Part shown: in pieces, positions 7,834 through 54,774 of the stretch
Layout: each line of letters opens with the position of its first letter
Position numbering within the stretch: the first letter of the stretch is position 1
Assembly: GCA_937902925.1 (NCBI GenBank)
Contig: CALFNN010000070.1
Span: 124,001-188,000, forward strand
Length of the DNA stretch: 64,000 bases
Direction: 5' to 3'
Source: an uncultured Opitutaceae bacterium
GTDB taxonomy: Bacteria; Verrucomicrobiota; Verrucomicrobiia; Opitutales; Opitutaceae
Made by a program: the position numbers and the translations under genes
Notes under the pieces: generated by a model
What the model saw: the letters and a program-made list of their open reading frames with translations, nothing else
What the model was told of the DNA's origin: nothing
The model's database searches: none

Positions 7834-8023
7834 AACCGGGCCGCCGGTCCGGCCGGAATTTTCGGAGGCGTCGAACCGGGCCGCTGCGCTCGCACGGCAT
7901 CACGTCGCGACTCGACCTGTCATCGCGGGACCGGCGATGCCCGGCCTGTTCGCTTTGGTCCTCGCGCCGGCGAATTGCGACACGTGCATCTATTTGCCGG
8001 CCTGGACGTCTGTCTGTCACCTC

Positions 8024-10795
8024 ATGAAGAAATCATACCCCAGGGTTTTGGCGCTCGTGCTGGCTGCCGGTTTGTTGGTTGGAATGGTCCCCCGCGCAGG
8101 CGCCGCAGATTATACGGGCTATACCGCCCTGGACCGGAGCCAGCCCGTTTCATTCGATGGCAAGACGGTCACGTGGAACGGCAGGACTTTCACGCTCGAC
8201 GAAAACACCCTCTTCCTCGATTCCCGGCTCGATCGCGCCCAGCTGGCGGGCAATCCCCACGCATTCAACAATCTCAAGGACGCGGCCGCGGCGCTGAAGA
8301 ACGGCACCGCGGAAAAGCCGATGATGTTGCTCACCGCGCCGGGCGTCTACTGGGTCGACGATCCCGACGATCCCGCGATCCGCACCGGCGGCGGTGGCGG
8401 CGGGCCGTATGGCATGACGATCGCCTGCAATTATCTCTACTTTTACGGCCTGAACACCAAGTGGCAGAATGTCGTCTTCGCCGTCAACCGCGGGCAGACC
8501 CAGGGTTCGGCGGGCAACTTCACGATGTTCAACATCCAGGGCCGCGGCCTGAAATCCGAAAACGTCACGTTCGGCAACTACTGCAACGTCGACCTGAATT
8601 TCCCGCTGAATCCCTCCCTGAGTCGCCCCAAGCGCGTCGACGCCATCACGCAGGCGCAGCTGTTTGCCTATGGCGGCAACGACGGCGTGGCCATCAACTC
8701 GGCCTTTGTCAGCCGGCTGAACCTGTCGCCCTTTGCCCGGACTTACCTCCATTGCCACATCGAGAGCAGCGGTCACGCAGGCGGCAGCGGCGTTTTCATC
8801 GGCTGCACGCTGGAGTTCTACAACTTCAACTTCTCCTCGGGCAAGTTCTTCGACTGCGATATCACCATCACCCCGATCTCGAGCGCCATGGAGGGCCGGC
8901 CGGTCTTCAAGTTCGGCTTTACGGACGGCACCGGCAACGCCGGCGTCTGCATCGACACCCGCTTCCACCGCAGCCAGGAGATGATTGCGAGGAATGTCGC
9001 CGCGGAAATTTCCTGGGACCGCGTGCCGCAGTCCCCGACGACCCGCGGCTATCAGTCCAACGTCACCCTCGACGGGAAGCCCTACGTCATTCAGGAAGCG
9101 TCCACGCCCGGTGCGACCGTCGTGATCCCCGCGGGCTCGGAGCTGCTCAAGGCGTTCAAGGTGGTCCACGAGGGCAAGACCTATTACAACGTGCCCAATG
9201 TCTCCAACGGCGTCGATCCCTTCGGCTACACTCCCGCCATCAAGGCGGCCGCAGTGGCGGCCGGTAAGAACGAAGACTATTACCTGAGCATTCCCACGGC
9301 CGCGACGCTGCGGGTCGCTGGCGCTCCGGCGGGTCCGGCGGCCCAAACCGGTCCGGGCGCTCCCGGCGCCGCGGCCGGCCCCGGCGGTCGGGGTGGTCGG
9401 GGTGGTCCGGCCGGCCGGGGCGGGCCCGGCGGGCCCGGATTCGGTGGCGCCGGTGCGCCCATCACCATTCGCTCCGGCCAGACGACGGCGACCCTCACCT
9501 GCAGCGTGACGCCTGCCGCCTCGGCTTCCAGCGCCGCGCTGGGCCAGTGGCAGTTCACGGCGAGCAAGCCGGGCATGGTGCAGATCGCCCCGGGCGCGAA
9601 CAATACCATCACGGTCGCCGGAACGAACAACACCACGGAGCCGACGGAGCTGATCATTACGGCGAAAAACGATCTGGGGCTGGAGGCATGCGCCCCGCTG
9701 ACCGTGGAGCCTGCCTTTATCGAACCGCCAACCTTTGCCCGGGCGCCCGCAATCACCCCACCGGCCAACGGCCGCGTGACGCTCAGTTACGATCTGGGCC
9801 TCGGCTCCAAAAAAGGACTCTCCGACGAATCGGTCATCATCTGGTATCGCTGCACGGATGCACAGGGCGCCAACCCCCTGAAGGTCGCGGTCAGTCGCCG
9901 GGATCGGCCGGAAACCGCCTACACGTTGTCGGAGGGCGATGTGGGATCCTACCTGATGGCCACCGTTCGACCCAAGCACAGCCTGAGTGAAGCGGGCCCG
10001 ATGCAGACGGTTTACTCCCGCGCCGTCGTGGCGCAGGACGACATAAAGGTCCACGCGATCGATACCGATTTCCAAAACTTCCCCTCGGACTCCCAACCCA
10101 AGATCATCCCCGGCACCTGGACGCTGGACGGTTACGTCCCACCCGAAACGGGGGCGAACAATTCAACGCGGTTCACGGCCAATCCCAACTCCTGGACCTA
10201 TGGCCAGGGCCAGAGCGGCTCGCTCAACTACTACGGCCTGATCGAGTCCGCCCGCGGCGCGCGCCTGTTCTACACGCCGGCTGGCAGCAAACATGGTGAT
10301 ATGACCGTGCGGGCCAGGCTCGCACCCGACAAAAACACCGGCCAGGGCTTCGGTTCGGCGACCGCACAATTCCTGGATGTCTACGTCAAGTATGACCTGG
10401 CGACCAAGACCGGTTACGGCCTGCGCATTCAGCGGCTCACGACCGAGGAAATCGCCGCGATCGGCTTTGATGGCGGTGGCGCCGTGGCCGGCTGCGCGGT
10501 CTTTCTGGTCAAATTGGCCGACGGCGTCGCGACCCCGATCAGCAAGAAGGTCATGACCAGCGCATTCGTGGCTGAATGCACGGTGGATCTGACGATCAAG
10601 AGCGGCCGATTGCAGGGCTCCGTGAGTTCCACGGATCCCGTCCGCAGCGGCGATGCCTTCAAATATCCCAGAGAGGTCCAGTTGGACGCGCCCATCGAAA
10701 ACAACACCTATGGCGGCACCGGCATGCTCTTCACGGGCACGGTCGGGGTGAATTCCGTGCTGGTGACCGGCTGGCAAACCTCCTGGCTCGAGTAA
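8024..10795 (+). CDS. secreted beta-helix-like protein, paralogue B (923 aa)
   Basis: Second copy of the 203-2971 gene. The start is fixed by the shared signal peptide (MKKSYPRVLALVLAAG, cleavage near GAADYTGY) and a shared leader just upstream (GTCTGTCTGTCACC before the ATG). Domain order is the same: beta-helix (NVTFGNYCNVDLNF, YLHCHIESS), Gly/Pro/Arg linker near 455-490, Ig-like strands, C-terminal sandwich with VRARLAPDKNTGQGFGSA. The differences are scattered substitutions and small indels, so the duplication is not recent. An upstream in-frame extension to 7676 exists but overlaps the SRPBCC gene and lacks the signal peptide context, so it was not used. Confidence 0.8.
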   Translation: MKKSYPRVLALVLAAGLLVGMVPRAGAADYTGYTALDRSQPVSFDGKTVTWNGRTFTLDENTLFLDSRLDRAQLAGNPHAFNNLKDAAAALKNGTAEKPMMLLTAPGVYWVDDPDDPAIRTGGGGGGPYGMTIACNYLYFYGLNTKWQNVVFAVNRGQTQGSAGNFTMFNIQGRGLKSENVTFGNYCNVDLNFPLNPSLSRPKRVDAITQAQLFAYGGNDGVAINSAFVSRLNLSPFARTYLHCHIESSGHAGGSGVFIGCTLEFYNFNFSSGKFFDCDITITPISSAMEGRPVFKFGFTDGTGNAGVCIDTRFHRSQEMIARNVAAEISWDRVPQSPTTRGYQSNVTLDGKPYVIQEASTPGATVVIPAGSELLKAFKVVHEGKTYYNVPNVSNGVDPFGYTPAIKAAAVAAGKNEDYYLSIPTAATLRVAGAPAGPAAQTGPGAPGAAAGPGGRGGRGGPAGRGGPGGPGFGGAGAPITIRSGQTTATLTCSVTPAASASSAALGQWQFTASKPGMVQIAPGANNTITVAGTNNTTEPTELIITAKNDLGLEACAPLTVEPAFIEPPTFARAPAITPPANGRVTLSYDLGLGSKKGLSDESVIIWYRCTDAQGANPLKVAVSRRDRPETAYTLSEGDVGSYLMATVRPKHSLSEAGPMQTVYSRAVVAQDDIKVHAIDTDFQNFPSDSQPKIIPGTWTLDGYVPPETGANNSTRFTANPNSWTYGQGQSGSLNYYGLIESARGARLFYTPAGSKHGDMTVRARLAPDKNTGQGFGSATAQFLDVYVKYDLATKTGYGLRIQRLTTEEIAAIGFDGGGAVAGCAVFLVKLADGVATPISKKVMTSAFVAECTVDLTIKSGRLQGSVSSTDPVRSGDAFKYPREVQLDAPIENNTYGGTGMLFTGTVGVNSVLVTGWQTSWLE

Positions 10796-41476: not shown

Positions 41477-41602
41477 TCATCGCGCATCGCTGGCCGGCGC
41501 CAGCAACGCCACCAGTTCCCCCGGATGCGGCCACGGCACGTTGTGATCGTCCTTCGCGATCCACGCCGGCCGGCCGTGGCCGCGAGCGCGGCGGTTCATC
41601 AT
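41477..41602 (-). CDS. possible 41-aa small protein
   Basis: The ATG overlaps the stop of the preceding 304-aa gene as ATGA, the coupling pattern seen throughout this region. The product (MMNRRARGHGRPAWIAKD... PHPGELVALLAP) has no recognised domain. Without codon statistics or homologues this may be chance. Confidence 0.25.
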   Translation of the reverse strand: MMNRRARGHGRPAWIAKDDHNVPWPHPGELVALLAPASDAR

Positions 41603-42513
41603 CGCTTCGGCGCCGGCGACGCGGCCGGCGATTGCTGCAGCCAGCTCGCGACCTCGCGCGCCACCACGTCCCCGGGCAGTGACGGGGCCACGGCCGCCAC
41701 TCCCTCCCGACCCCATTCGAGCAACGCCGCGCGCCTCGGCCCGGCCGCCGCCGGCGGCGCTGCGGCGATATCCAGCACGCTCAACGTAAAGCCATTCCTC
41801 ACGTTCAGGAGCGCGAGCGCGGCACCGGCCGGGAGATTCTGCTGCTGCGCGAAATCGGCGAAATGCGCGTAGGTCGGATCGTCGTGCTGCAGCCACGTCA
41901 CGAACAACTCGTCCCCGAGGGCCCCGCGAACCTGTTGCTCCGCCGCCTGCCGCGCCGCCTCGCGCGCCGCCAGCGCCGGGGGCGACAAATCGAACGTGAA
42001 ACCAAATTTGTCGTCGAAATCCTGCTCCGCGCGGAACACCGCCCGCCGCTGTTCGTCGGTCGCCGCCGTGCCGTCGAGGATCGCGCGCATTTTCTGCCCC
42101 GCCGCCGTCTCGCCGATCTCGTAGTCCTCGAGCTCGCGCGGCGTCATCACCGTGGCGAGATCCTTCCGCTTCTCGCGTTCGACCAATGCCAGCTGCCGTA
42201 AAAAGGCGCCCAAGCCGCCCGGAAACGCCTGCCCCGCCGCACCGTAGTCCGCCGACATTTTGGCCGAGATTTCCTCGTAGTCGCGAAGGATCGCCCTGAC
42301 CCGTGCCGCCCTCATCGCGGCGTCCGGCTTGCTGGCGTCCGGACGCGGCGATGACGCGGGCGGCAGGCTCTTCGCGACCGCCGGCGGCGGTGTCACGGCC
42401 GCCTTGCCGGCGGCCTCCCACTCGGAGGGGCGTGGCGCGGCTCGCCGCCCGAGCCAGACCGCCGTCGCGACGACGGCGAAAATCGCTGCAGCCCGGACGA
42501 CGGCTTTTTTCAC
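41599..42513 (-). CDS. membrane-anchored helical protein of the tandem-paralogue family (304 aa)
   Basis: An N-terminal anchor (VVRAAAIFAVVATAVWLG) and Pro/Ala-rich linker precede a helical domain with ALVEREKRKDLATVMTPREL and EDYEI, the same block (LEREK..DL...L.P.EL.DY) found in the four tandem genes at 46963-52373. It lacks their W..L...DDL N-terminal block, so it is a shorter branch. It lies 25 bp after the TlpA gene stop, probably in one transcript. Function unknown. Confidence 0.75.
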   Translation of the reverse strand: MKKAVVRAAAIFAVVATAVWLGRRAAPRPSEWEAAGKAAVTPPPAVAKSLPPASSPRPDASKPDAAMRAARVRAILRDYEEISAKMSADYGAAGQAFPGGLGAFLRQLALVEREKRKDLATVMTPRELEDYEIGETAAGQKMRAILDGTAATDEQRRAVFRAEQDFDDKFGFTFDLSPPALAAREAARQAAEQQVRGALGDELFVTWLQHDDPTYAHFADFAQQQNLPAGAALALLNVRNGFTLSVLDIAAAPPAAAGPRRAALLEWGREGVAAVAPSLPGDVVAREVASWLQQSPAASPAPKR

Positions 42514-42538: not shown

Positions 42539-43624
42539 TTATTTCGCCGCCGGCGCTGGCCGCAATTCGGGCGGCAGTTTCACCCCTTGCTTCGCGAGTT
42601 CGTCCACGAGCCGCGTGTCGCCCTCGCCGTAGCCGACGAACGCGTTCAGCACTTTGCCGTCGCGCCCGATCACGAATTGCGTCGGGATGCCGCTGACGCC
42701 GTAGAGTCGCACCGAGACCCGTTCCGCATATTTCTCCGGCGGACCGTCACGGCCGAGCGGGTCGTTCGCGAAAATCAGGTCGGGATACTTCGGCTGGTTC
42801 TCCTTCACCCACGCCTCGAAGCTCGCGCGCGTGTCGCTCGTGCAGGCCGCCAGCACCACCACATCCTGTGTCCGGGTCGCCGCGGCCACCTGCTGCGTGT
42901 GCGGCATCGAGGCGAGGCACGGACCGCACCAGGTCGCCCAAAAATCCAGCACCACGATCTTTCCGGCGAAGTCCGCCAGTTTCACCGGCTGGCCGCCCAG
43001 GTCCAAAACCGCGAAATCCGGCGCCACCGCGCCGCTCTTGAGCAGCTTTTCATCCTGCTCCCCGGGCGGCGGGGGCGCCGCGGGCAATTCGTCGGCCGCG
43101 ATCGCGATGCCCGCGTCGTGCAGATAACCGCGCAGGATCGTCGCGCTCTGGGCACCGAACCCGATCACGCCGCCGATCACTTTCCCTTCCCGGTCGATCA
43201 CCGCCGTGGCCGGATAGACGCCCAGCCCGAATTTTTTTTGCGAGACGCCGTCCGCCCGGGCCTTCCCCGCCGGGTCCCACGCCAGCGGGTAGCTCACCGC
43301 GTTCCGATGCTTCGCGAGCCACGCGTCGAACTCCTCGCGCGTCGCCGCCGAGCACACGCCGAGCACGGCCACGCCCTCCGTGGCGTATTTCGAAAAAATG
43401 TTTTCGAGCTGGTCCGCCGGCCCGCGGTTGGTCGCCCAGAAATTCAGCACGAGCGCGCGGCCCTTGAAATCGGAGAGCTTGATTTCCTTTCCGTCCACCC
43501 CGGCCACGGTGAAATCCGGCGCCACCGTCCCCGCCGCCAGCGCCCCGAACCGCGGTGCGGGTTCCGCCGCCACCAGCGCCGTTGCAAGCAGCAGCAGCAG
43601 CGACATGGGCCGGAAACGTTTCAT
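42539..43624 (-). CDS. tandem TlpA/thioredoxin-like protein with one redox-dead domain (361 aa)
   Basis: Signal peptide (PMSLLLLLATALVAA). Domain 1 (about 25-160) has the TlpA layout but reads FWATNRGPADQLE where the redox motif should be, so no Cys pair. Domain 2 (about 195-355) has an intact FWATWCGPCLASMP. Periplasmic thiol:disulfide exchange is expected for domain 2; domain 1 may bind a partner. The cis-Pro loop GIPTQFVIG is present in domain 2, and YPATAVID in domain 1. Confidence 0.9.
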   Translation of the reverse strand: MKRFRPMSLLLLLATALVAAEPAPRFGALAAGTVAPDFTVAGVDGKEIKLSDFKGRALVLNFWATNRGPADQLENIFSKYATEGVAVLGVCSAATREEFDAWLAKHRNAVSYPLAWDPAGKARADGVSQKKFGLGVYPATAVIDREGKVIGGVIGFGAQSATILRGYLHDAGIAIAADELPAAPPPPGEQDEKLLKSGAVAPDFAVLDLGGQPVKLADFAGKIVVLDFWATWCGPCLASMPHTQQVAAATRTQDVVVLAACTSDTRASFEAWVKENQPKYPDLIFANDPLGRDGPPEKYAERVSVRLYGVSGIPTQFVIGRDGKVLNAFVGYGEGDTRLVDELAKQGVKLPPELRPAPAAK

Positions 43625-43743
43625 GCCGCGACGATGCGGGTTTTTCCCGCTGTCGCGATTTTTTTCGCGCACGCCTTTTCGCGACCTTCCCGTTTGTCGT
43701 TGCGGGGAGCGCGGCGACGCCGCAATCCAGCTCGATTCGCCCT

Positions 43744-44598
43744 GTGCCTGCCGTCCACACCCGCTCCGTCCTGCAAGTCGTCGCCGCCGCGTTGTGCTGG
43801 AGTCTCGCCGGCGTGCTCATCAAGGGCATCGCGTGGCCGCCCCTCGCCATTGCCGGCGGACGCGGGCTCATCGCCGCGCTCTTCCTCCTCGCGACCAACC
43901 GCGGGCTGCGTTTCCATTTTTCGCGCGCCCAGGTCCTCGGCGCCGTCGCCTACGCCGCGTGCACGGTGACGTTCTGCGTGGCGACGAAACTCACCACCGC
44001 CGCCAACGCCATCCTGCTCCAATACACTGCACCGGTCTGGATCGCGCTCCTCGGCGCGTGGTTCCTCGGCGAACGCGCCACCCGCGCCGACTGGGCCATG
44101 ATCGTCGTCTCGCTCGGCGGCATGGCGCTGTTTTTCCGCGACGGCCTCGAGCTGGGCCATGCGGCCGGCGACACGCTCGGCGTGCTGAGCGGCGTCTGTT
44201 TCGCCGCCATGATCATGGCCCTGCGCCACCAGAAGGACACCTCCGCCTCCGAGTCGATCATCCTCGGCAACCTGCTCGCGTTCCTCATCGGCCTCCCGTG
44301 GATCGCCCGCGCGCCCGCGCTCAACGTCGCGGGCTGGACCCTCCTGGTGCTGCTCGGCGTCGTGCAACTGGGCGTGTCCTACTGGCTCTACGCCCGGGCC
44401 ATCCGCCATGTCACCGCACTCGAGGCCGTGCTGCTGCCGGTGATCGAGCCGATCCTCAACCCCGTGTGGGTGCTCATCGCCCTCGGCGAAAAACCCGCGC
44501 CGCTCGCGCTCGCCGGCGGCACCATCGTCGTCGCCGCCGTCACGCTCCGCGCCCTCGCCTCCATCCGCACCGGCCGCGGCATCCTCACTCCCGCCTGA
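43744..44598 (+). CDS. EamA-family (DMT) transporter (284 aa)
   Basis: Two EamA repeats, ten predicted transmembrane helices: VVAAALCWSLAGVLIKGIAW at the start, ANAILLQYTAPVWIALLGAW in repeat one, LEAVLLPVIEPILNPVWVLI in repeat two. A GTG at 43744 was chosen because residues before it do not belong to the fold. Divergent from the TlpA gene. Substrate unknown (metabolite export). Confidence 0.88.
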   Translation: MPAVHTRSVLQVVAAALCWSLAGVLIKGIAWPPLAIAGGRGLIAALFLLATNRGLRFHFSRAQVLGAVAYAACTVTFCVATKLTTAANAILLQYTAPVWIALLGAWFLGERATRADWAMIVVSLGGMALFFRDGLELGHAAGDTLGVLSGVCFAAMIMALRHQKDTSASESIILGNLLAFLIGLPWIARAPALNVAGWTLLVLLGVVQLGVSYWLYARAIRHVTALEAVLLPVIEPILNPVWVLIALGEKPAPLALAGGTIVVAAVTLRALASIRTGRGILTPA

Positions 44599-44673
44599 CC
44601 CCGCCCTCCCGAGGCCGGGGTTACCCATCGATGTCCGACCGCATTTCCACGCCCGCAAACCCGAGGCGCCGGC

Positions 44674-44692
44674 TGTCAACTAATAGTTGACA
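44674..44692. promoter_or_regulatory. palindrome copy A (TTGTCAACTA family)
   Basis: TGTCAACTA-A-TAGTTGACA, a perfect 19-bp palindrome, 144 bp upstream of the lipase start and 76 bp after the EamA stop. One of five copies (A-E) in 8.5 kb. Each half contains TTGACA on one strand, so it could overlap a promoter -35 element. Confidence 0.75.
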
Positions 44693-44835
44693 AACTCTCC
44701 GACCCACGGGCGCTGGCCCACGCCATTTTCGCCACCACCGTCACCCCACCCTCCAAAAAAGTCCGCGTAACCTGACAGGTCTCAGGATTCTTTCTGCACT
44801 TCGATCGGCCAACGGTGTCTGCGCCCCGGCGCCGC

Positions 44836-45582
44836 ATGAAACTTAATCCCCTCCTCGCGTGTTGTCTCGCGATGCTCACTTCGGGAATCGTTCGCGCCGC
44901 TCCCACGGACACTGTTGTCATCCTGCACGGGCTCGGCCGCACCCACTGGTCGATGACGCGGCTCGCGACCGCGCTCGAGCGCGACGGCTACCGCGTCGTC
45001 AACCTCTCCTACCCCTCGCGCACGCTGTCCATTGAGTCGCTCGCAACCCGCTGGCTTCCGGACCAGCTCCACGCCAGCGGCGCCGACACGGCGCCGCGCG
45101 TTCACTTCGTCACGCACTCGATGGGTGGCATCATCCTCCGGCTCTGGCTGCGCGACGGCGGCGTGCCGGCGAACCTCGGCCGCGTCGTGATGCTCGCCCC
45201 GCCGAACGCCGGCAGCGAGGTCTCCGACCGCCTCAATGCCTTCCCGCCCTTCCGCTGGTTCACCGGCGCGAACGGCCGCCGCCTCGGCACCGCGCCCGAC
45301 GCACTTCCCCGCGCCCTCGGCCCGTGGCCCGCACCGTCGGCCGATCTCGGCATCATCGCCGGTTCGTTCTCGTGGAACCCGCTCTTCTCCGCGTGGCTGA
45401 CCGGCCCCGACGACGGCAAGGTCAGTGTCGCCGCGACGCATCTCGCCGGCGAACGCGACCACCTCGTGCTGCCCTGCTCGCACACCTGGCTCGCCTGGCG
45501 CGCCGCGACCCTCGCCCAGACCCGCGCCTTCCTCCGCACCGGCCAATTCGCCCCGGCGGATCGTTTGTCAACTAATAGCTGA
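44836..45582 (+). CDS. secreted lipase/alpha-beta hydrolase (248 aa)
   Basis: Signal peptide MKLNPLLACCLAMLTSG. Lipase fold: TVVILHGLGRTHWSM (oxyanion-hole HG), nucleophile elbow THSMGG in HFVTHSMGGIILRLW, Asp region near GPDDGKVSV and terminal His in HTWLAWR. Start at the ATG opening the signal peptide. The last codons and the stop (…LSTNS) lie inside palindrome copy B, so the 3' end of the gene appears to have been set or altered by that element. Confidence 0.88.
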   Translation: MKLNPLLACCLAMLTSGIVRAAPTDTVVILHGLGRTHWSMTRLATALERDGYRVVNLSYPSRTLSIESLATRWLPDQLHASGADTAPRVHFVTHSMGGIILRLWLRDGGVPANLGRVVMLAPPNAGSEVSDRLNAFPPFRWFTGANGRRLGTAPDALPRALGPWPAPSADLGIIAGSFSWNPLFSAWLTGPDDGKVSVAATHLAGERDHLVLPCSHTWLAWRAATLAQTRAFLRTGQFAPADRLSTNS

Positions 45583-45585
45583 CAA
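45565..45585. promoter_or_regulatory. palindrome copy B (TTGTCAACTA family)
   Basis: TTGTCAACTA-A-TAGCTGACAA, one mismatch in the right half. It spans the lipase stop codon (TGA at 45580-45582). Copy C follows 38 bp later. Confidence 0.75.
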
Positions 45586-45623
45586 CTCCCTTCCTGGCTT
45601 TCCCCGCCACACCCAACGCGCAT

Positions 45624-45644
45624 TTGTCAACTATTAGTTTACAA
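45624..45644. promoter_or_regulatory. palindrome copy C (TTGTCAACTA family)
   Basis: TTGTCAACTA-T-TAGTTTACAA, one mismatch in the right half. It lies between the convergent lipase and EamA genes, so it is downstream of both, an unusual place for an operator. Confidence 0.75.
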
Positions 45645-45734
45645 CCAATCGTAGGCCATGCACCTTGGGACTCGGCCGCGGTCGGCGTGTCGCGGTTCAC
45701 GTGGCGCGGACCGGGGGCTGCGACCTCGAAGGCC

Positions 45735-46739
45735 TCATCCACCGGATGACACTTCACCCGTCGCCACCGGCGGGGTTTTCGGCGGCGGCTTCAGCTGGAT
45801 GAGCACGTTCGCGAGCGTGATGAGTCCGCCGCCGGCCAGCAGATGCGGGGTCGCCCGCTCGTTCGCGTAATCGATCGCCGCCCATCCCGAAAATATCCCC
45901 GGCAAAAACAACGCCATCGCCGACCCGAAGATCGGCTCGATGCAATAGATCAATCCCGCCTCGGTCGCCGTGATCTTCGGCTGCCACGCGTTCATCAGGC
46001 CGAACGCCCCGACGGTGCAGAACACCGCCAGCACCGCCGTGAGCCCCACCCATGCCGGCGAGGTCCATGGCACCCACAGCGCCCCGGCGTCCGGCGCGGT
46101 CGCCGCCGCGAGCGTCCAGAAGATGACCCCCTCGGTCGCGAACATCGCCAGCGTGATCCGCTCCGGCCGGTTCGCCGCGAACTCCTTTTTCTCGAGGCAG
46201 AAAATCGTCCCCATGAAAAACAGCGAACTCGCCAGCGTCTCCCATTCGCCGCGGCCGAAGTGCATCGCCCGCCAGTCGAACCGCCCGAGGATGGCCACGC
46301 CCGCCAGCACCAGCGCGCAGCACGTCCACACGAACCACCCCGGGTTCCGCCGCGCCCGCACCGCCAGCCAGACCGGAATCAGGATCGCGTAAAACTGCGT
46401 GAGAAACGCCGAGGTGCTCGCCGCGGTGAACTGCAGCCCGTCGTTCTGCAGCAGCATGCCGGCGCCGGTGAAACTGCCGATGATCGCGCCCTGCTTCAGC
46501 TCCGCGCGCGTCATCCACCAGAAACGGCGCGGCCGCAGCGCCACCATCACGAGCACCGCCAGCAGAAAACGCGGCGCCACCGTGTAGATCGCGGAAAACC
46601 ACGGGCCCGCCGCCGGCAACAACGCCCCCTGCAACAACCCGAGCGCCTTGATCACTGGAAAACTCAGTCCCCAGAAAAAATTCGCGAGCAACAGCATCGC
46701 CATGGCTCGCGCGCGCTGCGGATGATGGGCCGGAATCAT
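45735..46739 (-). CDS. EamA-family (DMT) transporter (334 aa)
   Basis: Ten predicted helices in two EamA repeats: AMLLLANFFWGLSFPVIKAL, FTAASTSAFLTQFYAILIPV, then AGLIYCIEPIFGSAMALFLP in repeat two. It starts at MIPAHHPQ, since the upstream in-frame residues are Pro/Arg-rich with no membrane character. It is distinct from the 43744 gene, not a recent duplicate. Substrate unknown. Confidence 0.88.
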   Translation of the reverse strand: MIPAHHPQRARAMAMLLLANFFWGLSFPVIKALGLLQGALLPAAGPWFSAIYTVAPRFLLAVLVMVALRPRRFWWMTRAELKQGAIIGSFTGAGMLLQNDGLQFTAASTSAFLTQFYAILIPVWLAVRARRNPGWFVWTCCALVLAGVAILGRFDWRAMHFGRGEWETLASSLFFMGTIFCLEKKEFAANRPERITLAMFATEGVIFWTLAAATAPDAGALWVPWTSPAWVGLTAVLAVFCTVGAFGLMNAWQPKITATEAGLIYCIEPIFGSAMALFLPGIFSGWAAIDYANERATPHLLAGGGLITLANVLIQLKPPPKTPPVATGEVSSGG

Positions 46740-46962
46740 CGGAAAAACGGCCAGCGTGGCCCGGCCGTCGCCACCCGCCAAGCGAATTGCCGCTGTGCCG
46801 GCGGCCGGCGCGCGCGTCTGCGGCGCTTGCTTCCGCCGCCGCCCTGCCGGCACTCGGGGACGCCATCGCGGCGACGGCCCGCGCCGCGCCCGTCTAGGTT
46901 CGACTTTGCGGGGTGATTCGTTCTAACAAACGACCGCGTCGCGCGTTTTCCCCACTGCCCCC

Positions 46963-48363
46963 ATGAAGTTGCCTACGCTTCTGCTCGCCGGCTCGCTGCT
47001 CGCGAATGCCGCGCTCGTGGCGTTGTTCGTGGCGCAGCCGGTGCTCGCTCCGCCGTCCGTCCGCCGGATATTTTCCGGTCAAGCCTCCCGTGATTCCGCC
47101 CCGCCGGCCGCCGCACGCGCATCAGCGGACACCGCGAAATCCAAGGCCGCCCTCGAGTCCGCCACGTGGCTGTCGCTCCAACCCGACGACCTGAAGGGGC
47201 TCGTCGGCCGCCTGCGGGCCGCGGGTTTCCCGCCGTCGGTCGTCCGCTCCGTGATTGCACGGCTGCTCAACGAGCGATTCGCCCCGCGCGTCCGGGAGTT
47301 GCTGGCGGGGGATCCGAACACGCCCTATTGGAAATCCAGTCCGAACGTCTTCGGCCCGAACGACACGAAGCGCCTCGAAGCCTACCAGCAGCTCAACCGC
47401 GATCGGGCCAAGTTGCAGCGCGAACTCCTCGGCGACGATTTCTTCAACGACAACGGCGAGGTGACCGCGGCACAGCGCCGGCAATACGGCGACCTGGCCC
47501 GCTCCAAGATCGACCTCATCCAGCGCATCAACGACGACTATGCCGAGATGACGAGCCAGATTCGCGCCGGGATGCAGGGCATCACTCTCCCCGAGGATCG
47601 CGAGAAGCTCGCCCTGCTCGAACGCGAAAAACACGCCGACCTCGCCGCGGTCCTCAGCCCCGAGGAACTCGCCGACTACGAAATTCGCTCGTCGTCGATC
47701 ACGACCATGCTGCGCGGCCGGCTCGGCTCGTTCGAGCCCACCGAGGCCGAGTTTCGCGCGATCTACCAGGTGAACCAGGCGATCTCCGATCAGTTTGCCG
47801 CCAACGGCGGGTTCCAAGGCATCGCCCCCGACACCCGGCGCACGCTGGGCCAGCAGTTCCTCGATCAGATGAAGGCCGCCCTCGGCCCCGACCGCTACGC
47901 CGAATACGACCGCGCGACCAACCGTGACTTCCAGCAACTCACGGCGCTGGCCCAGCGCGACAACCTGCCGGCGGACACCGCGATCCAAGCCTTCAACCTG
48001 CGCGATACCGTCGCCGCCCAATCCAGCCAGATCTTCGACAACCCCGCGCTCAGCCCCGATCAAAAGCGCGCGGCGCTCGCGTCTCTCGCACAGGAAACCC
48101 GGACGCAGTTGCTCGCGACCCTCGGACCCACCGTCGGTCCCGCGTATCTCAACGTCGCGAACCAGTGGCTCAACAACGTCGAGCGCGGCAGTGCCGTGTC
48201 GTTCAGCGGCCCGCCGACCGGCACCTCCAGCAATTCGACCACGGGGGTGACCCTGTTCATGGGTAGCAGCGGTCCCGTCTACCGCCGCGTTCCCACGCCC
48301 CGCCCCCCGGGCGCCGCGCCGCCCCCACCCGCGACGCCGGGCAATCTCATCTTCCGGCCATGA
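46963..48363 (+). CDS. tandem-family protein 1, membrane-anchored helical (466 aa)
   Basis: Uncleaved signal/anchor (TLLLAGSLLANAALVALFVA), then a linker and the family's first block W..L..DDL..L..RLRA.GFP (WLSLQPDDLKGLVGRLRAAG, FPPSVVRSVIARLLNERF). The second block is LALLEREKHADLAAVLSPEE, and the third is FEPTEAEFRAIYQVNQAISD. The C-terminus is Pro/Gly-rich and probably disordered. Its stop overlaps gene 2 by 4 bp. Function not recognised. Confidence 0.8.
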   Translation: MKLPTLLLAGSLLANAALVALFVAQPVLAPPSVRRIFSGQASRDSAPPAAARASADTAKSKAALESATWLSLQPDDLKGLVGRLRAAGFPPSVVRSVIARLLNERFAPRVRELLAGDPNTPYWKSSPNVFGPNDTKRLEAYQQLNRDRAKLQRELLGDDFFNDNGEVTAAQRRQYGDLARSKIDLIQRINDDYAEMTSQIRAGMQGITLPEDREKLALLEREKHADLAAVLSPEELADYEIRSSSITTMLRGRLGSFEPTEAEFRAIYQVNQAISDQFAANGGFQGIAPDTRRTLGQQFLDQMKAALGPDRYAEYDRATNRDFQQLTALAQRDNLPADTAIQAFNLRDTVAAQSSQIFDNPALSPDQKRAALASLAQETRTQLLATLGPTVGPAYLNVANQWLNNVERGSAVSFSGPPTGTSSNSTTGVTLFMGSSGPVYRRVPTPRPPGAAPPPPATPGNLIFRP

Positions 48364-49586
48364 AAATCGCCCCGGTGCTGCTCGGCTGTTCGCTCGCGGC
48401 AAACGCCGCACTGATCGTCGCCTTGATCGCAGGCGTGTCCGGCGACACCACGCCCTCCTCGACCAAGTCCGCTCGCGCCGCCGCCGCGCCCGCCCGCGTC
48501 TCGTCCACGGCGCTCGCGGGCGTCGATCCCGAACTGTGGAACAAGCTCCCGTCCGGCGATTGGTCCGCGCTCGTGGCCAGCCTCCGCGCCAAGGGCTTTC
48601 CCCTCTCGATTATCCGGGCGATCGTGAGCGCCCAGGTCGACGAGGGTTTCCGCGATCGGCGGAAAGCCCTGGAGGCGGCGATGAACAACGTTCCATTCTG
48701 GAAAAACCCGATCCCCGATCCGCAAACGCTGGCCGCCCAGCGGGCCCTCAGCCGCGAGGAGCAGAAGATGTTGAAGGATATCTTCGGCACCGACGCTTCC
48801 GCCGACGACCCCATGGCGGCCATCTCCGACGAACAGCGCCTCGGCGGCGTGCCGCCGGAGAAGCGCGACTCAGTCAAACAACTCCTGCAGGAATTCAACG
48901 ATCAGCGTAGCGACGTCTACGAGCGTTTCCGGAGCACCGGCGGCCCCATCACCCTCCTCCCCGACGACCAAGCCAAGCTCCGGCAGCTCGACAATCTCCA
49001 GCACGCCGAACTCGCAAAAATTCTCACGCCGGCCGAACTCGAGGACTACGACCTGCACAATAGCAACACCGCGAGCACCCTTCGCTATCAGCTCACCGCT
49101 TTCGATGCGACCGAGGACGAGTATCGCACGCTCTTCCGGCTGCAGTCCGCCTTCGACTCGCAGTGGGGTGCGACGTATGGCCAGTCTTCCCAGGAGGAAA
49201 TGCGCGCCCGCGGTGCGGCGCAGGCCGATCTGCAAAAACAAATCGAGGCCGCCTTCGGCCCCGATCGCTTTGCCGCCTACCAGCGCGCCAACGACTACAG
49301 TTACCGCCAGACCACCGCGCTCGCCTCGCGCCTCGAACTGCCCGCCGGGACCGCCGACCAGGTTTACGCCGTCCAGAAGGAAATCCAGGACCGCATGCGG
49401 ACCGGCCCGATGACACCCGCCGATCGCGCCGCACTGGCCGACGAAGCCACCGCGAAAGTCAGCGCCCTCCTCGGCCCGCGCGGCTTCGATGCCTACAAGC
49501 AAAACGGCGGCCAGTGGCTCCAAAATTTGACGCCCCGCCCGGTCGCGCCGCGGCCCGCGATCGGCACCGGCGGTGGCGGGGGCTGA
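48360..49586 (+). CDS. tandem-family protein 2 (408 aa)
   Basis: Anchor IAPVLLGCSLAANAALIVAL; block 1 LWNKLPSGDWSALVASLRAK then GFPLSIIRAIVSAQVDEGF and VPFWKNP; block 2 LDNLQHAELAKILTPAELED (the Arg/Glu-Lys core is diverged); block 3 FDATEDEYRTLFRLQSAFDS. The terminal tail is Pro/Arg/Gly. The ATG overlaps the preceding stop (ATGA). Same architecture as genes 1, 3 and 4. Confidence 0.8.
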   Translation: MKIAPVLLGCSLAANAALIVALIAGVSGDTTPSSTKSARAAAAPARVSSTALAGVDPELWNKLPSGDWSALVASLRAKGFPLSIIRAIVSAQVDEGFRDRRKALEAAMNNVPFWKNPIPDPQTLAAQRALSREEQKMLKDIFGTDASADDPMAAISDEQRLGGVPPEKRDSVKQLLQEFNDQRSDVYERFRSTGGPITLLPDDQAKLRQLDNLQHAELAKILTPAELEDYDLHNSNTASTLRYQLTAFDATEDEYRTLFRLQSAFDSQWGATYGQSSQEEMRARGAAQADLQKQIEAAFGPDRFAAYQRANDYSYRQTTALASRLELPAGTADQVYAVQKEIQDRMRTGPMTPADRAALADEATAKVSALLGPRGFDAYKQNGGQWLQNLTPRPVAPRPAIGTGGGGG

Positions 49587-49636
49587 CCCCGCCGTCGGTC
49601 CGTCGCCTTCCCATGCCGGTGCATCCCGGCCGCCCC

Positions 49637-51106
49637 ATGAAGACCTTCCTCCTCGCCGTCTCGCTGCTCCTCAACGCCGGCTTCGTCACCGTCTTCGCTC
49701 TCCGGCCCACGCGCGTCCCGCCCGCCTTCCGCGACTACTTCACCTTCGGCTCCGGCCCCGCCGACGCCGCCTCGACAGGCACCAAGCGTCCGGCCGGCGC
49801 GCCTGTGGGCAAAGCCGCCACCGCCCACGCCAAGCTCTGGGCCACCCTCTCCTCCGACGATCTCGCCACGCTCGCCGCCCGGCTCCGCGCCGCGGGCTTC
49901 CCGATCTACACCATCCGCGCCATCCTGCAGAACGCGGTCAACGCCCGCTACGCCGCCCGGATGCGCGAGCTCGCCCAAAACGATCCCAACGCACCGTTCT
50001 GGAAGGCGACAAATTCGCTCGGCATGGATCCCAAGCGCCTCGCCGAATACATGCAGCTCGCCAACGAACGCTCGCGCGTCATGCGCGACCTGCTGGGCAA
50101 CTATCTCTACCACGACAGCGGCACCCTCAGCACCGCCGAGGCCCGCCAGTATGGCGGCCTGCCCCAGGCGAAGATCGACCAGCTCGAGCGCATCAACCAG
50201 GACTATTCGGAACTGAACAACCAGGTGCGCGCCGCGATGAACGGCATCACGCTCCCCGAGGACCGCGAAAAACTCGCGCTGCTCGAACGCGAAAAACGCG
50301 CCGACCTCGCCGCCCTCCTCACGCCCGAGGAGCTCGCCGACTACGACATGCGCAACTCCCCGGTCACCGCCCGCCTGCGCCCGACCTTCGATTTGTTCAA
50401 GGTCACCGAGGACGAGTTCCGCTCCATCTACACCATCCAGCAGGCCTACAGCGACCGGGTCGATCTCAACGGCACCACGTTCGGCGCCCTGACCCCGGAC
50501 GAGCGCAGCACCTTCATGCAGCAGCGGACCGCCGCGCAAAAGGAACTCGACGCCCAGATGCACGCCGCGCTCGGCGACGCGCGTTACGCCGAATTCGTGC
50601 GCGACGGCGACCGCGATTTCCAACAGCTCAACCGCCTCGCCGAGCAGCAGAATCTCCCCGCCCAGGTGGCGATCGATGCCTACAACCTGCGCGACGGTCT
50701 CTCCCAGGAATCGAACCGCATCTTCAACGACGCCTCCCTCGACTACGATCAGAAGCGCGCCGCCCTCCAGTCGCTGGCCCAAAACACGCGCACGCAACTC
50801 GTCGCCACCCTCGGCCCCGCGGCCAGCGCCACCTATCTCCGGACCGCCGACCGCTGGCTGACGAGCGTCGAACGCGGCGGCGCCATCACTTTTACGAGCA
50901 CCGGCGGCACATCCATTCGCGGCCTGCCCAACCCCAACGCCCCCCGGCCCGTGGCCGGCGGCACCTCCACGATAATCGGCACCGCGGCCGGCGGCATCAT
51001 CACCTCGGGTGACGGCGTGTTTTATCTTGGCGGCGGCACGACGGGCTCCGGCCCGACGATCATCACGGCCCCGGCGCCCGTGACCGCACCGGCGCCCACC
51101 CGCTAA
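49637..51106 (+). CDS. tandem-family protein 3 (489 aa)
   Basis: Anchor MKTFLLAVSLLLNAGFVTVF; block 1 LWATLSSDDLATLAARLRAA, GFPIYTIRAILQNAVNARY and APFWKATN; block 2 LALLEREKRADLAALLTPEE, LADYDMRNS; block 3 FKVTEDEFRSIYTIQQAYSD. It is closest to gene 1, including the NDDYAEM/NQDYSEL stretch. It ends in a Gly/Thr/Pro-rich tail. Start at the ATG opening the hydrophobic segment, 50 bp after gene 2; the frame is open farther upstream inside gene 2, but that part was rejected. Confidence 0.8.
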   Translation: MKTFLLAVSLLLNAGFVTVFALRPTRVPPAFRDYFTFGSGPADAASTGTKRPAGAPVGKAATAHAKLWATLSSDDLATLAARLRAAGFPIYTIRAILQNAVNARYAARMRELAQNDPNAPFWKATNSLGMDPKRLAEYMQLANERSRVMRDLLGNYLYHDSGTLSTAEARQYGGLPQAKIDQLERINQDYSELNNQVRAAMNGITLPEDREKLALLEREKRADLAALLTPEELADYDMRNSPVTARLRPTFDLFKVTEDEFRSIYTIQQAYSDRVDLNGTTFGALTPDERSTFMQQRTAAQKELDAQMHAALGDARYAEFVRDGDRDFQQLNRLAEQQNLPAQVAIDAYNLRDGLSQESNRIFNDASLDYDQKRAALQSLAQNTRTQLVATLGPAASATYLRTADRWLTSVERGGAITFTSTGGTSIRGLPNPNAPRPVAGGTSTIIGTAAGGIITSGDGVFYLGGGTTGSGPTIITAPAPVTAPAPTR

Positions 51107-51119
51107 ATCCCGGACCTCC

Positions 51120-52373
51120 ATGAAAATCTCCTCGATTCTCCTCGGCGGTTCGCTCGCGGCGAACGCCGTCCTTCTCGCGCTGTTCATTTCGGGCGCCTTC
51201 GCCGGGTCCGATTCGACCCCTGCCGCGCCGAATGCCAACGCGACCGCCAGCCACGCCGTCGCGGCGGCCGCCGCTTCCGCCGCGGACATCGATCCCGCGA
51301 CTTGGACCAACCTCCAGCCCGACGATCTTCCCGGCATCCTCGCCCGATTGCGCGCCGAGGGCTTTCCACTCGAGATGGTCCGAGCCATCATGGGCGAGCT
51401 GGTGCGCGTCCAGTTTGCGCCCCGTCGCGCCGCGCTCGGCCTCAATGACAAACTGCACGAACGCCCCTTCTGGGAGCCGGCCACGCTCGATGCCAAGACG
51501 GAAGCCGCCCGCCGCCAGATCTTGAAGGAGCAAAACCAGGCGCTGAAGGATTTGCTCGGCCCCGATGCGACCGACGATACCGCGCTCGCGAACCTGCGTC
51601 GCCAGCTTCCCAATTTTTCCGACGACAAGATTACCGCCATCCAGCGCGCCCAGCAGACACTCAGCGAAAAGGGTCAGGCTATTATCGCCAACCTCCCGAA
51701 TGCCATCTTCAGCGCGGCCGACCTCGCAGGTATTAACCAGGAGTTTCACACCGAACTTGCGAAAATCCTCACTCCCCAGGAACTCGGGGACTACGATCTC
51801 CGCACCAGCAACACCGCCAACAATCTCCGCCGCCAGCTCGCGGCCTTCGATCCCTCGGAGCAGGAGTTCCGCACGCTCTACCAGTTGCAGAAGGCGTTCG
51901 ACGACCAGTATCAGCTCTCGTCGTCGATCGCGACCATGGCACCCGACCAGCAACGCCAGCTGATGACGGAGCGCAACCAGGCCCAGCAGCAGTTGAACGC
52001 CGGCATCCAGGCCGCCCTCGGCGACCAGCGCTACGCCGACTACCAGCGGTCCAGTAACTACGACTTCCAGCAAACTTCAAAGCTTGTCTCCCGCCTCGAT
52101 CTTCCGCCGGACACGGCCAGCCAACTCTACGCGATTCAGCAGGAATTCACCCAGCGCTCCCACGATGTCGGCCTCGGGGCCGGCCCGCGACCGTCGGTCG
52201 CCGAGCTTCAAACGCAACTCGCCGCCCTCGGCGAGGAGGCGAAGGCCCGCATCACGGCGCTGATCGGCCCGACCGGCTACCAAGCTTACCAGCAATACGG
52301 TGGTCAATGGATGCAAAATGTCCGCCTGCGCACGGCTCCGCCGCCGGCCATAGTCCGCCCCGCGGGCGGATGA
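51120..52373 (+). CDS. tandem-family protein 4 (417 aa)
   Basis: Anchor ISSILLGGSLAANAVLLALF; block 1 TWTNLQPDDLPGILARLRAE, GFPLEMVRAIMGELVRVQF and RPFWEPA; block 2 FHTELAKILTPQELGDYDLR; block 3 FDPSEQEFRTLYQLQKAFDD. Most similar to gene 2. Starts 13 bp after gene 3, completing a four-gene unit. The block order in all four suggests ancient tandem duplication with pairwise relations 1-3 and 2-4. Confidence 0.8.
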   Translation: MKISSILLGGSLAANAVLLALFISGAFAGSDSTPAAPNANATASHAVAAAAASAADIDPATWTNLQPDDLPGILARLRAEGFPLEMVRAIMGELVRVQFAPRRAALGLNDKLHERPFWEPATLDAKTEAARRQILKEQNQALKDLLGPDATDDTALANLRRQLPNFSDDKITAIQRAQQTLSEKGQAIIANLPNAIFSAADLAGINQEFHTELAKILTPQELGDYDLRTSNTANNLRRQLAAFDPSEQEFRTLYQLQKAFDDQYQLSSSIATMAPDQQRQLMTERNQAQQQLNAGIQAALGDQRYADYQRSSNYDFQQTSKLVSRLDLPPDTASQLYAIQQEFTQRSHDVGLGAGPRPSVAELQTQLAALGEEAKARITALIGPTGYQAYQQYGGQWMQNVRLRTAPPPAIVRPAGG

Positions 52374-52381
52374 ACCCTCCC

Positions 52382-52410
52382 GGTGGCAGCCCCTGAAAAA
52401 TTCTGCCACC
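52382..52410 (+). terminator. possible terminator hairpin of the tandem-family unit
   Basis: GGTGGCAG at 52382-52389 pairs with CTGCCACC at 52403-52410, loop 13 nt. It starts 8 bp after the last stop. No T-tract follows, so it is not a canonical Rho-independent terminator and may only protect the 3' end. Confidence 0.35.
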
Positions 52411-52530
52411 CGGATTAAAGCCGCGACCGCCGGGCTCAACCGGCCGCCCGACCGCGAACCGCCTGACCCACCTGACTCGCCCGTCTGCACCGATGGCTGC
52501 CGCCGCAATCCCCTGCGCTCCCCCGGGCGT

Positions 52531-52551
52531 TTGTCAACTATTAGTTGACAA
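52531..52551. promoter_or_regulatory. palindrome copy D (TTGTCAACTA family)
   Basis: TTGTCAACTA-T-TAGTTGACAA: perfect 21-bp palindrome, the cleanest copy of the set. It lies 235 bp beyond the 3' end of the HTH gene with no obvious promoter-proximal gene of its own. Confidence 0.75.
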
Positions 52552-52785
52552 TATCCCGCCGTCGCACGGCTCCCGAAACCGCCACGGGACGCGCCGCGCC
52601 CCGGTTGCCCGGCCGGCTCTGCGGTCCGATCGAAGTCTGCCGTGCACGATCCCTTTTCGACCGACGGGAGTTTCTTGCCACCACGATGTCACGCCTGGCC
52701 CGGCCGTGCGCCCACGGTCGCAACCGCACCCCAACGGGCATTCGGGTTCGCTCGCGGGTCTCCGCGGCACCCCGGCTGCCTCGCC

Positions 52786-53154
52786 TCAGGCCGACGGAGT
52801 GTCGCCGGCGCTATTGGCTACCAGCCAGGCGATGATTTGCAGCGTCCGCTCCGCGTCCGGCATCCGGGTGCGCTGCACGAAATACGCGTTCACCTGCTGG
52901 CGATCCAGCCCCAGCAGCCGCGCCAGCATCGCCTGCGAGCCGCGTTTTTTCAGATGCGGGCCCGCTTCCTTGACCAGTGCGTTCCAGAGCGGCGTCGCGG
53001 GCCCCGGTCGGGGCGTCGTGCCACGGCGAACGCGCCGCGCGAGGCGAAAGGCCTTGGCGCGGTCCGCCACCAGCGCCTCCGCCGCCGCAAAAATCGCCCC
53101 GCCCACCTCGAACGGCAGCATCGCCGGCATCGCAACTTTTCGTGACGTGCTCAT
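52786..53154 (-). CDS. small HTH-domain regulator (122 aa)
   Basis: About 60 N-terminal residues (AIFAAAEALVADRAKAFRLA) without a known fold, then an XRE/phage-type helix-turn-helix: LVKEAGPHLKKRGSQAMLAR, LLGLDRQQVNAYFVQR, MPDAERTLQIIAWL. The second helix (RQQVNAYF) is the likely recognition helix. Its own start codon is 9 bp from palindrome copy E, and copy D lies beyond its 3' end, so it is the prime candidate to bind these sites. The Arg-rich middle (RLARRVRRG) could add DNA contacts. Confidence 0.78.
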   Translation of the reverse strand: MSTSRKVAMPAMLPFEVGGAIFAAAEALVADRAKAFRLARRVRRGTTPRPGPATPLWNALVKEAGPHLKKRGSQAMLARLLGLDRQQVNAYFVQRTRMPDAERTLQIIAWLVANSAGDTPSA

Positions 53155-53162
53155 AGATGAGG

Positions 53163-53183
53163 TTGTAAACTATTAGTTGACAA
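53163..53183. promoter_or_regulatory. palindrome copy E, between HTH and pap genes
   Basis: TTGTAAACTA-T-TAGTTGACAA, one mismatch in the left half. On the minus strand it lies 9 bp before the HTH start codon; on the plus strand it precedes pap by 110 bp. The position suits autoregulation of the HTH gene and control of pap; no -10 box was confidently identified. Confidence 0.75.
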
Positions 53184-53292
53184 TAAGCGCAAGACAAAAA
53201 TGCCCGGCGGCTTCGGCCTGTCACCGAATCGTCTCCATTCATCCGGATCGAGCCGGCTCGACAAGACCGCGCCGCGCCGCCTTCCTGCTGCC

Positions 53293-54774
53293 ATGGCCAA
53301 GGCGAGCGAGGGGCGGCGGTTGCCCAAAAAAGATTACGAGGCCCGCGTGCCGGTGCTGCGCGCCGAGCTCGTGAAGATGCAGGTCGCGCTCCAGCACGCG
53401 CCGTTTCCCGTTCTGCTCGTCATCGCCGGCGACGAGGCCTCCGGCAAGGGCGACGTCGTCAACATCCTCAATGGCTGGCTCGACCCGCGCGGCGTCGAGA
53501 CGTTCGCGTTTCACGATCCGACCGACGAGGAGCGCGAACGCCCGCCGATGTGGCGTTACTGGCGCAGCCTGCCGCCGCGCGGCCGCATGGCGATCTACGC
53601 CGGCGGGTGGCACACCGACGCCCTGCTCGCCGACCCGCGCAACCCGCGCGAGCTCGCCGATTTCGACGAGACCCTCCGCCGCCTCGCGCACTTCGAGGGC
53701 CTGCTCGCCGACGATGGCGCCCTCATCGTGAAAATCTGGCTCCGCCTGTCCAAGGACGCGCAACGCGCCCGCCTGCGCGACCTCGCCGACGACCCCGACA
53801 CCGCGTGGCGCGTTTCCCCGGCCGACTGGAAGAGCCACCGCGATTACGACCGGCTCGCGCGGCTCGCCGAGCGGATGCGCCGCGCCACGCACCGCCCCGG
53901 CGCCCCGTGGCACGTGATCGATGCGGGCGATCCGCGCTGCCGCAACCTCGCCGTCGCCGACTACCTCGTCGCCCGCTTTCACGCGCACGCCCGCGCGCGG
54001 AAAAAAATCCCCGCCGCCATCAGGCCGCGCCGCACCGTGGCGCTGCGCCCCGCCGGCCTGCGGCGGCTGCACGCGCTCGCCCTCGACCAGCGGCTGTCGG
54101 AAAGCGCCTACGAGGCGAAACGCGACAAATGGCTCGGCCGCCTCAATCGCGCCGTCCGCGCCGCCGCCGAGCAGGGCCGCTCCATCGTCTGGGTGTTCGA
54201 GGGCTGGGATGCCGCCGGGAAGGGCGGCGCCATCCGCCGGCTGACGAGCGCGATCGACGCGCGCGACTGCCGCGTCATTCCGGTCGCGAAGCCGACCGAC
54301 GAGGAAAAGTCCCACCACTATCTCTGGCGGTTCTGGCGCCACGTGCCGCGCGCCGGCCGCGTCACGATCTACGACCGCTCGTGGTTCGGCCGCGTGCTGG
54401 TCGAGCGGCTCGAGGGATTCTGCCGCGACGACGAGTGGCGGCGCGCCTACGCCGAGCTGAACGACTTTGAGGCGCAGCTCACCGCGCACGGCATCATCGT
54501 GTTGAAATTCTGGCTGCACCTCTCGAACGCCGAGCAGTTGCGCCGCTTCCGCCACCGCGAGGAAACCGCCTACAAGCGGCACAAGATCAACGCGGAGGAC
54601 TGGCGCAACCGCCGCAAGTGGCCCGCCTACGAGATCGCCGTCGGCGACATGCTGGCGCTCACGCACCGGCCCCACGCGCCGTGGCACCTCGTGCCCGCGG
54701 ACAACAAGCGCCACGCGCGACTCCAGATTCTCAAGGTGTCCTGCAAGCAGATCGCCGCGACGCTGGAAACGTAG
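53293..54774 (+). CDS. pap: polyphosphate:AMP phosphotransferase, two-domain PPK2 (493 aa)
   Basis: Phosphorylates AMP to ADP with polyphosphate. Two fused PPK2 domains: domain 1 (about 15-230) with a modified Walker A AGDEASGKGDVVN, domain 2 (about 265-490) with a canonical EGWDAAGKGGAI, lid residues YDRSWFGRVLVERLEGF and KFWLHLSNAEQLRRF. This order and length (about 490-500) are typical of class II PPK2 (PAP), where the first domain is a degenerate copy. The ATG opening MAKASEG was chosen; residues upstream from 53200 are not conserved-like. Confidence 0.93.
   Translation: MAKASEGRRLPKKDYEARVPVLRAELVKMQVALQHAPFPVLLVIAGDEASGKGDVVNILNGWLDPRGVETFAFHDPTDEERERPPMWRYWRSLPPRGRMAIYAGGWHTDALLADPRNPRELADFDETLRRLAHFEGLLADDGALIVKIWLRLSKDAQRARLRDLADDPDTAWRVSPADWKSHRDYDRLARLAERMRRATHRPGAPWHVIDAGDPRCRNLAVADYLVARFHAHARARKKIPAAIRPRRTVALRPAGLRRLHALALDQRLSESAYEAKRDKWLGRLNRAVRAAAEQGRSIVWVFEGWDAAGKGGAIRRLTSAIDARDCRVIPVAKPTDEEKSHHYLWRFWRHVPRAGRVTIYDRSWFGRVLVERLEGFCRDDEWRRAYAELNDFEAQLTAHGIIVLKFWLHLSNAEQLRRFRHREETAYKRHKINAEDWRNRRKWPAYEIAVGDMLALTHRPHAPWHLVPADNKRHARLQILKVSCKQIAATLET

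Follow-up and report, generated by a model that had tools for sequence, protein, structure and literature searches.

Dispersed palindromes apparently paired with a small helix-turn-helix protein in Opitutaceae bacteria

Five palindromes and a bracketed gene

We examined a 64,000-nucleotide stretch of DNA from an uncultured Opitutaceae bacterium (the window), which holds five copies of a short palindrome, A to E, and, between the last two, a gene for a small helix-turn-helix (HTH) protein. All five palindromes are 21 bp long and odd-centered, of the form TTGTCAACTA-W-TAGTTGACAA, and have at most one mismatch between their arms (none in D, one each in A, B, C, and E). The features are as follows.

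Palindrome A, 44673..44693, no strand: CTGTCAACTAATAGTTGACAA; dispersed copy between an EamA gene (ending at 44598) and a lipase gene
Palindrome B, 45565..45585, no strand: TTGTCAACTAATAGCTGACAA; overlaps the lipase stop codon (the lipase open reading frame [ORF] ends at 45582); forms a doublet with C
Palindrome C, 45624..45644, no strand: TTGTCAACTATTAGTTTACAA; in a convergent gap, 59 bp from B and 41 bp past the lipase gene end
Palindrome D, 52531..52551, no strand: arms match without exception; brackets the HTH gene on its downstream side; the convergent neighbor gene ends at 52373
HTH gene, 52786..53154, minus strand: 122 aa; lambda-repressor-like fold class with an N-terminal helix; proposed cognate protein of the palindromes
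Palindrome E, 53163..53183, no strand: TTGTAAACTATTAGTTGACAA; bracket on the upstream side, 9 bp from the HTH start; may serve in autoregulation

The original prediction had described five palindromes with at most one mismatch each, and every one was recovered as a complete 21-bp site. Four of the starts it gave are correct, and the first site begins one base earlier, at 44673. Its placement of the sites, with A, B, and C bracketing the lipase gene and D and E bracketing the HTH gene, agrees with the ORF coordinates, and its view that their density is far above chance was borne out by dinucleotide shuffles of the window, which yielded a mean of 0.00 such sites (0/100 shuffles). As it had also noted, the five sites have no T-tract after them, which sets them apart from intrinsic terminators. 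An Rfam search of window positions 43500-54500 returned zero matches.

The sites belong to a dispersed family

A genome-wide motif search found 57 copies at three or fewer mismatches across the 6.0-Mb source genome, and a reversed control pattern matched nowhere in it. The high local density in the window is real, yet it is part of a dispersed family. The prediction had considered a generic repeat, with hundreds of copies in every intergenic region; with about 57 copies, the family is not of that kind. The 405,716-bp contig that holds the window (C70 of the source genome, G000) carries 17 palindromes, grouped in small clusters, where 4.1 would be expected.

Several source-genome copies form doublets 51 to 59 bp apart, B and C among them. 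Over all doublets the distance is 44 to 59 bp, and asymmetric elements in inverted orientation occur in three genomes (G028, G009, and G016). The two arms vary together: the source genome contains the symmetric variants TTGTAAACTA..TAGTTTACAA and ATGTCAACTA..TAGTTGACAT, and position 5 shows 54 matched pairs (C/G or A/T) to 3 mixed ones (Fisher p=6e-8). Flanking bases extend the stem by a mean of 1.35 bp, versus 0.67 bp for re-paired flanks (0/2000 shuffles). The source-genome copies have no flanking sequence in common, and beside the stems of the 57 copies there is a weak excess of G but neither a GTAG nor a CGTC tag. In the viral collection IMG/VR, a relaxed 17-base core occurs in only 10 contigs, which, roughly estimated, is close to what chance would give in so large a collection.

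With gaps classified by a home-made gene caller, 40 of the 57 copies lie outside called ORFs, though noncoding DNA makes up about 9% of the genome. Convergent gaps hold 15 copies, tandem gaps 18, and divergent gaps 7; for their length, convergent gaps have about a twofold excess, and divergent gaps have none. The sites are not enriched upstream of genes, so their placement is not that of a conventional operator set. The 14 copies inside coding sequence are all read in the sole stop-free frame, giving peptides such as CQLIVDN. We rejected the idea that these are clean 7-residue insertions: in RlmN, the palindrome-encoded peptide lies within a 17-residue insertion relative to 6fz6, and in a nonribosomal peptide synthetase adenylation domain, the copy falls in a segment of about 26 residues that linear gramicidin synthase lacks. 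For the copy in MGMT, the alignment begins downstream of the palindrome and thus gives no view of the site.

A bracketed family of HTH proteins

Judged by its sequence, the 122-aa product of the gene between D and E is an HTH protein without a recognized catalytic domain; it has no Y1_Tnp match. The Pfam models YdaS (PF15943) and HTH_3 match it weakly, under their cut-offs, and with 22.4 bits against a gathering cut-off of 30, it falls outside YdaS. No family for the protein is present in Pfam, NCBIfam, or PHROGs, and our literature searches found no paper describing one. The predicted structure consists of an N-terminal helix and a lambda-repressor-like HTH; the best VIA-align hit (Z of about 7) assigns a fold class only, and Foldseek gave no match at E<=0.001. 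A conserved TLRPGxxTPLWN block and the N-terminal helix characterize the family. Homologs are encoded in 73 of 150 sampled genomes, with one to eight genes each, and in a scan of GTDB genomes, nearly all relatives came from records with Opitutae or Verrucomicrobia in their names. When the proteins encoded near sites were clustered, HTH homologs were found to adjoin palindromes or lie between them in the source genome, G009, G017, and G028.

We then looked for palindromes around 90 HTH loci with criteria blind to the outer spelling. They occur on both sides of 67/90 HTH genes, compared with 0/60 pseudo-genes placed in the outer flanks, and a stricter matched-pair test still finds 53/90 bracketed. 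Palindrome density drops from 8.9 per kb in the 100 bp nearest the HTH gene to about 0.3 per kb at distances above 300 bp. The spelling of the half-site varies widely between members (TGTCACCTA, TGTCACTTA, TGTAACGTA, ATGTTCGTA, AAGTCCGTA, TATGGCGTA, and others), whereas the center is nearly always TAWTA.

Flanks extend the stems of the bracket palindromes by a mean of 1.96 bp, versus 0.42 bp when shuffled, and the added stem sequence is varied. The longest of these palindromes reach 49 bp, and the lower stems on either side of a single HTH gene need not match (L106 and L107). At six loci (L106, L107, L170, L172, L192, and L199), the bracket arms reach 17 to 24 bp and are perfect or near-perfect, with lower stems that can differ between copies. 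That lower stems vary and yet stay complementary hints at an additional role for a hairpin or cruciform form. As a rival reading, the whole family could be RNA or DNA hairpins, acting in mRNA stability, termination, or hairpin-specific processing, with only a secondary link to the protein. The complementarity of these varied stems, in some cases for 7 to 14 bp past the core, is what such hairpins would show. Nevertheless, we regard this explanation as improbable: the sites lack a T-tract and an Rfam match, they also occur in divergent gaps and at either gene end, and hairpins leave the protein covariation described next unexplained.

The recognition helix covaries with the half-site

We compared protein and DNA in 75 nonredundant HTH-palindrome pairs, taking residues 84-92 as the recognition helix and relying on Mantel tests, a per-residue list, and contingency counts. 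Recognition-helix distance correlates with half-site distance at r=0.55, against 0.24 for the rest of the protein. Once the rest of the protein is removed in a partial Mantel test, the correlation is still 0.53, a value reached in 0/5000 permutations. Individual residues track individual bases. Namely, Arg85 pairs with G at -8 in 59/64 cases, and Pro, Ala, or Val85 mostly pairs with T or A; at -4, Arg87 has C as its partner in 52 cases, T in 9, and A in none, whereas Gln, Thr, Ala, or Ser87 has A there in 11/13 cases. Such matching would be expected if every palindrome were bound by the protein encoded beside it. Because the covariation goes past what kinship of the proteins would produce, the HTH protein encoded between D and E very likely binds these palindromes.

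Would this make the protein a conventional global regulator? The 57 sites would then be operators for neighbors such as the lipase and PPK2 genes. Covariation between recognition helix and half-site fits such a regulator, as do the position of site E directly before the HTH gene's own start and the match of a lambda-like dimer, judged by fold class, to the size of the palindrome. Yet the sites prefer convergent gaps over promoters, 14 of them lie within coding sequence, and copy number is patchy inside genera. In addition, near-uniform perfect copies whose arms covary surpass what is expected of independent half-sites. The original prediction had proposed operators of the HTH protein. Taken simply as binding sites, these gain support from the bracketing of 67/90 genes and from the covariation; taken as a conventional regulon, they do not agree with the lack of upstream enrichment, the 14/57 copies in coding sequence, and the preference for convergent gaps. 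We therefore consider a conventional regulator unlikely; control of neighboring genes through operators alone fits less well than the reading of the sites as repeats discussed below.

Distribution, descent, and turnover

We surveyed 150 genomes with the general pattern TGTNANNTAATANNTNACA, which is present in 84 of them with up to about 90 copies and with almost zero control matches. Copy number differs sharply within genera. This bears on the proposal that the protein is a nucleoid or segregation factor, like MatP, Noc, or SlmA, and that selection keeps the palindromes as chromosome-organizing sites. Tens of near-perfect sites across the chromosome, clustered on one contig here, would suit that role. 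However, about half of the genomes in the family lack them, up to eight paralogs coexist with differing spellings, copy number changes in the extreme within genera, and copies sit in frame inside genes; on balance, such a role appears very unlikely.

In three genera other than that of the source genome, the HTH gene stands beside one conserved flank, with palindromes that differ between them. This arrangement points to mainly vertical descent of the HTH gene. The original prediction had also suggested boundary sites of single-gene cassettes. On this reading, the palindromes would be recombination boundaries of mobile cassettes carrying the lipase or the HTH gene, each of which does sit between copies; furthermore, HTH units are bracketed throughout the family. 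Yet this bracketed unit occupies a conserved, syntenic locus in several genera and does not behave as a freely moving one. A 10-locus protein cluster was found among ORFs near sites, but the HTH cluster alone lies between palindromes, and clustering revealed no other recurrent bracketed gene. The lipase cassette was accordingly set aside: with about 57 such sites in the genome, the lipase probably lies between A and B by chance. Short-spacer doublets and single copies, which are common, also count against cassettes, and we hold them to be extremely unlikely.

Presence and absence of individual copies can be seen between close relatives. One segment of 61 bp, which contains an extended palindrome, occurs in G079 but is missing from its congener G161. 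Likewise, one insertion of a miniature inverted-repeat transposable element (MITE) of about 125 bp, which carries a palindrome and lies at a CTAG target, is present in G086, whereas G110 and G131 have empty sites there. Terminal inverted repeats, a common interior, and target-site duplication, as in a MITE, are found only in this carrier element, of genus g26, and not in the source-genome copies. Six loci in G086 and G110 (L220, L227, L228, L234, L237, and L241) contain the element, with ends CTAGTATTACTCTGTTA / TAACAGAGTAATACTAG, CTAG targets, and the HTH palindrome at its center. A sequence of about 77 bases beside one site (L227, query positions 225-301) is repeated dozens of times in G086, G110, and G131.

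A probable coevolving palindrome-protein unit

We consider it probable that the palindromes form a population similar to repetitive extragenic palindromic (REP) sequences, tied to the lambda-repressor-like HTH protein, with gene and palindromes as one coevolving unit. This draws on the bracketing, dispersal, protein-DNA covariation, and turnover observed computationally and on the absence of a Y1 transposase from the source genome. Cognate binding is strongly indicated by the sequence data. A dimer of the HTH protein would read one half-site per subunit, with TTGTCAACTAWTAGTTGACAA as the predicted target, and residues 84-90 of the recognition helix would set the spelling of the palindrome. The HTH gene, bracketed by its own palindromes, would be inherited mainly vertically, while the tens of copies dispersed as singles and inverted doublets would be a REP-like repeat population multiplying and being lost over evolutionary time. 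To judge from the position of site E, a dimer bound there would repress the HTH gene itself; to judge from the association, the protein would promote the spread or upkeep of the palindromes, possibly with host replication or repair enzymes, or passing MITEs, as partners.

In favor of this reading, at least 10 copies occur in 44/73 genomes with the HTH gene and in 4/77 without it, an odds ratio of 28. Several points weigh against it. The genome-level association just given is uncorrected for kinship. Eight genomes (G016, G168, G115, G145, G004, G078, G018, and G021) carry 5 to 23 palindromes and no HTH relative at E<=0.001; these may be orphan repeat populations or possess more divergent proteins, and a family hidden Markov model found no missed HTH gene near the orphan palindromes at six G016 loci. 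Conversely, eleven genomes have the HTH gene and no palindromes of the searched spelling. The source-genome copies show no target-site or other direct duplication. Congener comparisons gave no insertion of just the 21 bp opposite an intact empty site: alleles without the palindrome lack longer segments (61 bp, about 125 bp or more), and the same holds among the g26 congeners. In this genus, the palindrome is carried inside a MITE that is presumably moved by some other transposase. Dimer binding by itself does not account for the long perfect lower stems. Finally, binding is inferred from covariation.

A bolder idea, which we put forward tentatively and rate as possible, is a new type of repeat propagation, in which each of these small lambda-repressor-like proteins, with no recognized catalytic domain, would maintain copies of its binding palindrome throughout the genome. 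The two partners would diversify together by a readable recognition code, and the protein may steer host replication or repair at hairpins. If true, the coevolving unit would extend the concept of REP sequences and their transposases to a DNA-binding protein without a transposase domain, and the needs of REP-like repeats for spread and persistence would become testable. A protein family with so many natural specificities, and with the corresponding sites visible in the genomes themselves, would also provide a ready-made data set on the protein-DNA recognition code.

Other features of the window

Four consecutive paralogous ORFs on the plus strand (46963-52373) have no convincing Pfam match. 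Their similarity alternates, the first with the third and the second with the fourth, a pattern suggestive of a duplicated gene pair, and an ORF on the minus strand (41599-42513) may be related to them. Elsewhere, a stretch of about 2.5 kb (199-2704) is repeated 7.8 kb downstream (8020-10528) with 70-83% identity.

Comparison with known systems

YdaS and HTH_3 (lambda-repressor-like) DNA-binding proteins share a weak sequence match and the fold class with the HTH protein. They differ from it in that the latter has the TLRPGxxTPLWN block, an N-terminal helix, and its own palindromes dispersed genome-wide. We know of no cognate bracketed protein for the Rickettsia palindromic elements. Those elements (PMC3733652) resemble the present copies in lying in frame within protein genes but are tagged or longer, whereas here 21-bp copies occur with a proposed cognate HTH protein.

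A survey of GTAG-tagged repeats is the sole relevant paper that we found on palindromes in Opitutaceae or Verrucomicrobia (PMC3733652). It reports abundant palindromic repeats in Opitutus terrae, including intragenic copies (uvrA), and classes them as GTAG-tagged REPs. These share with our source genome a bacterial lineage and an abundance of palindromes; they are described as tagged, and our sites carry no such tag.

The closest parallel in organization is that of REPs, or REP doublets forming hairpins (REPINs), with the REP-associated tyrosine transposase (RAYT, or TnpA-REP) (PMC3116915, PMC3733652, PMC8266576). Both comprise short, mostly intergenic palindromes that number in the tens and stand either singly or in inverted doublets, with a cognate gene bracketed by its own palindromes and several gene-palindrome pairs per genome. 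REPs prefer convergent and unidirectional gaps, and intragenic copies occur (PMC3733652); here, too, convergent gaps are favored and in-frame intragenic copies are occasional. A dispersed multicopy palindrome, a bracketed cognate gene (67/90), and REPIN-type inverted doublets with a short spacer are all found. In contrast, the bracketed gene of REP/RAYT systems encodes a Y1/HUH transposase and ours a lambda-repressor-like HTH protein, and our palindrome has no GTAG tag and is nearly perfectly symmetric around a TAWTA center. Y1_Tnp is absent from the source genome and from G017, G028, G066, G107, G143, and G166, all of which carry palindromes. At least five general-pattern palindromes occur in 6/15 genomes without Y1_Tnp and in 52/135 with it, so the two appear unrelated. 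On this comparison, we take the organization to be REP/RAYT-like but the palindrome-HTH system not to be a member of that group. Dozens of related bacteria hold their own, differently spelled palindrome-protein pair, in what looks like a previously unnamed relative of REP systems that does without a transposase.

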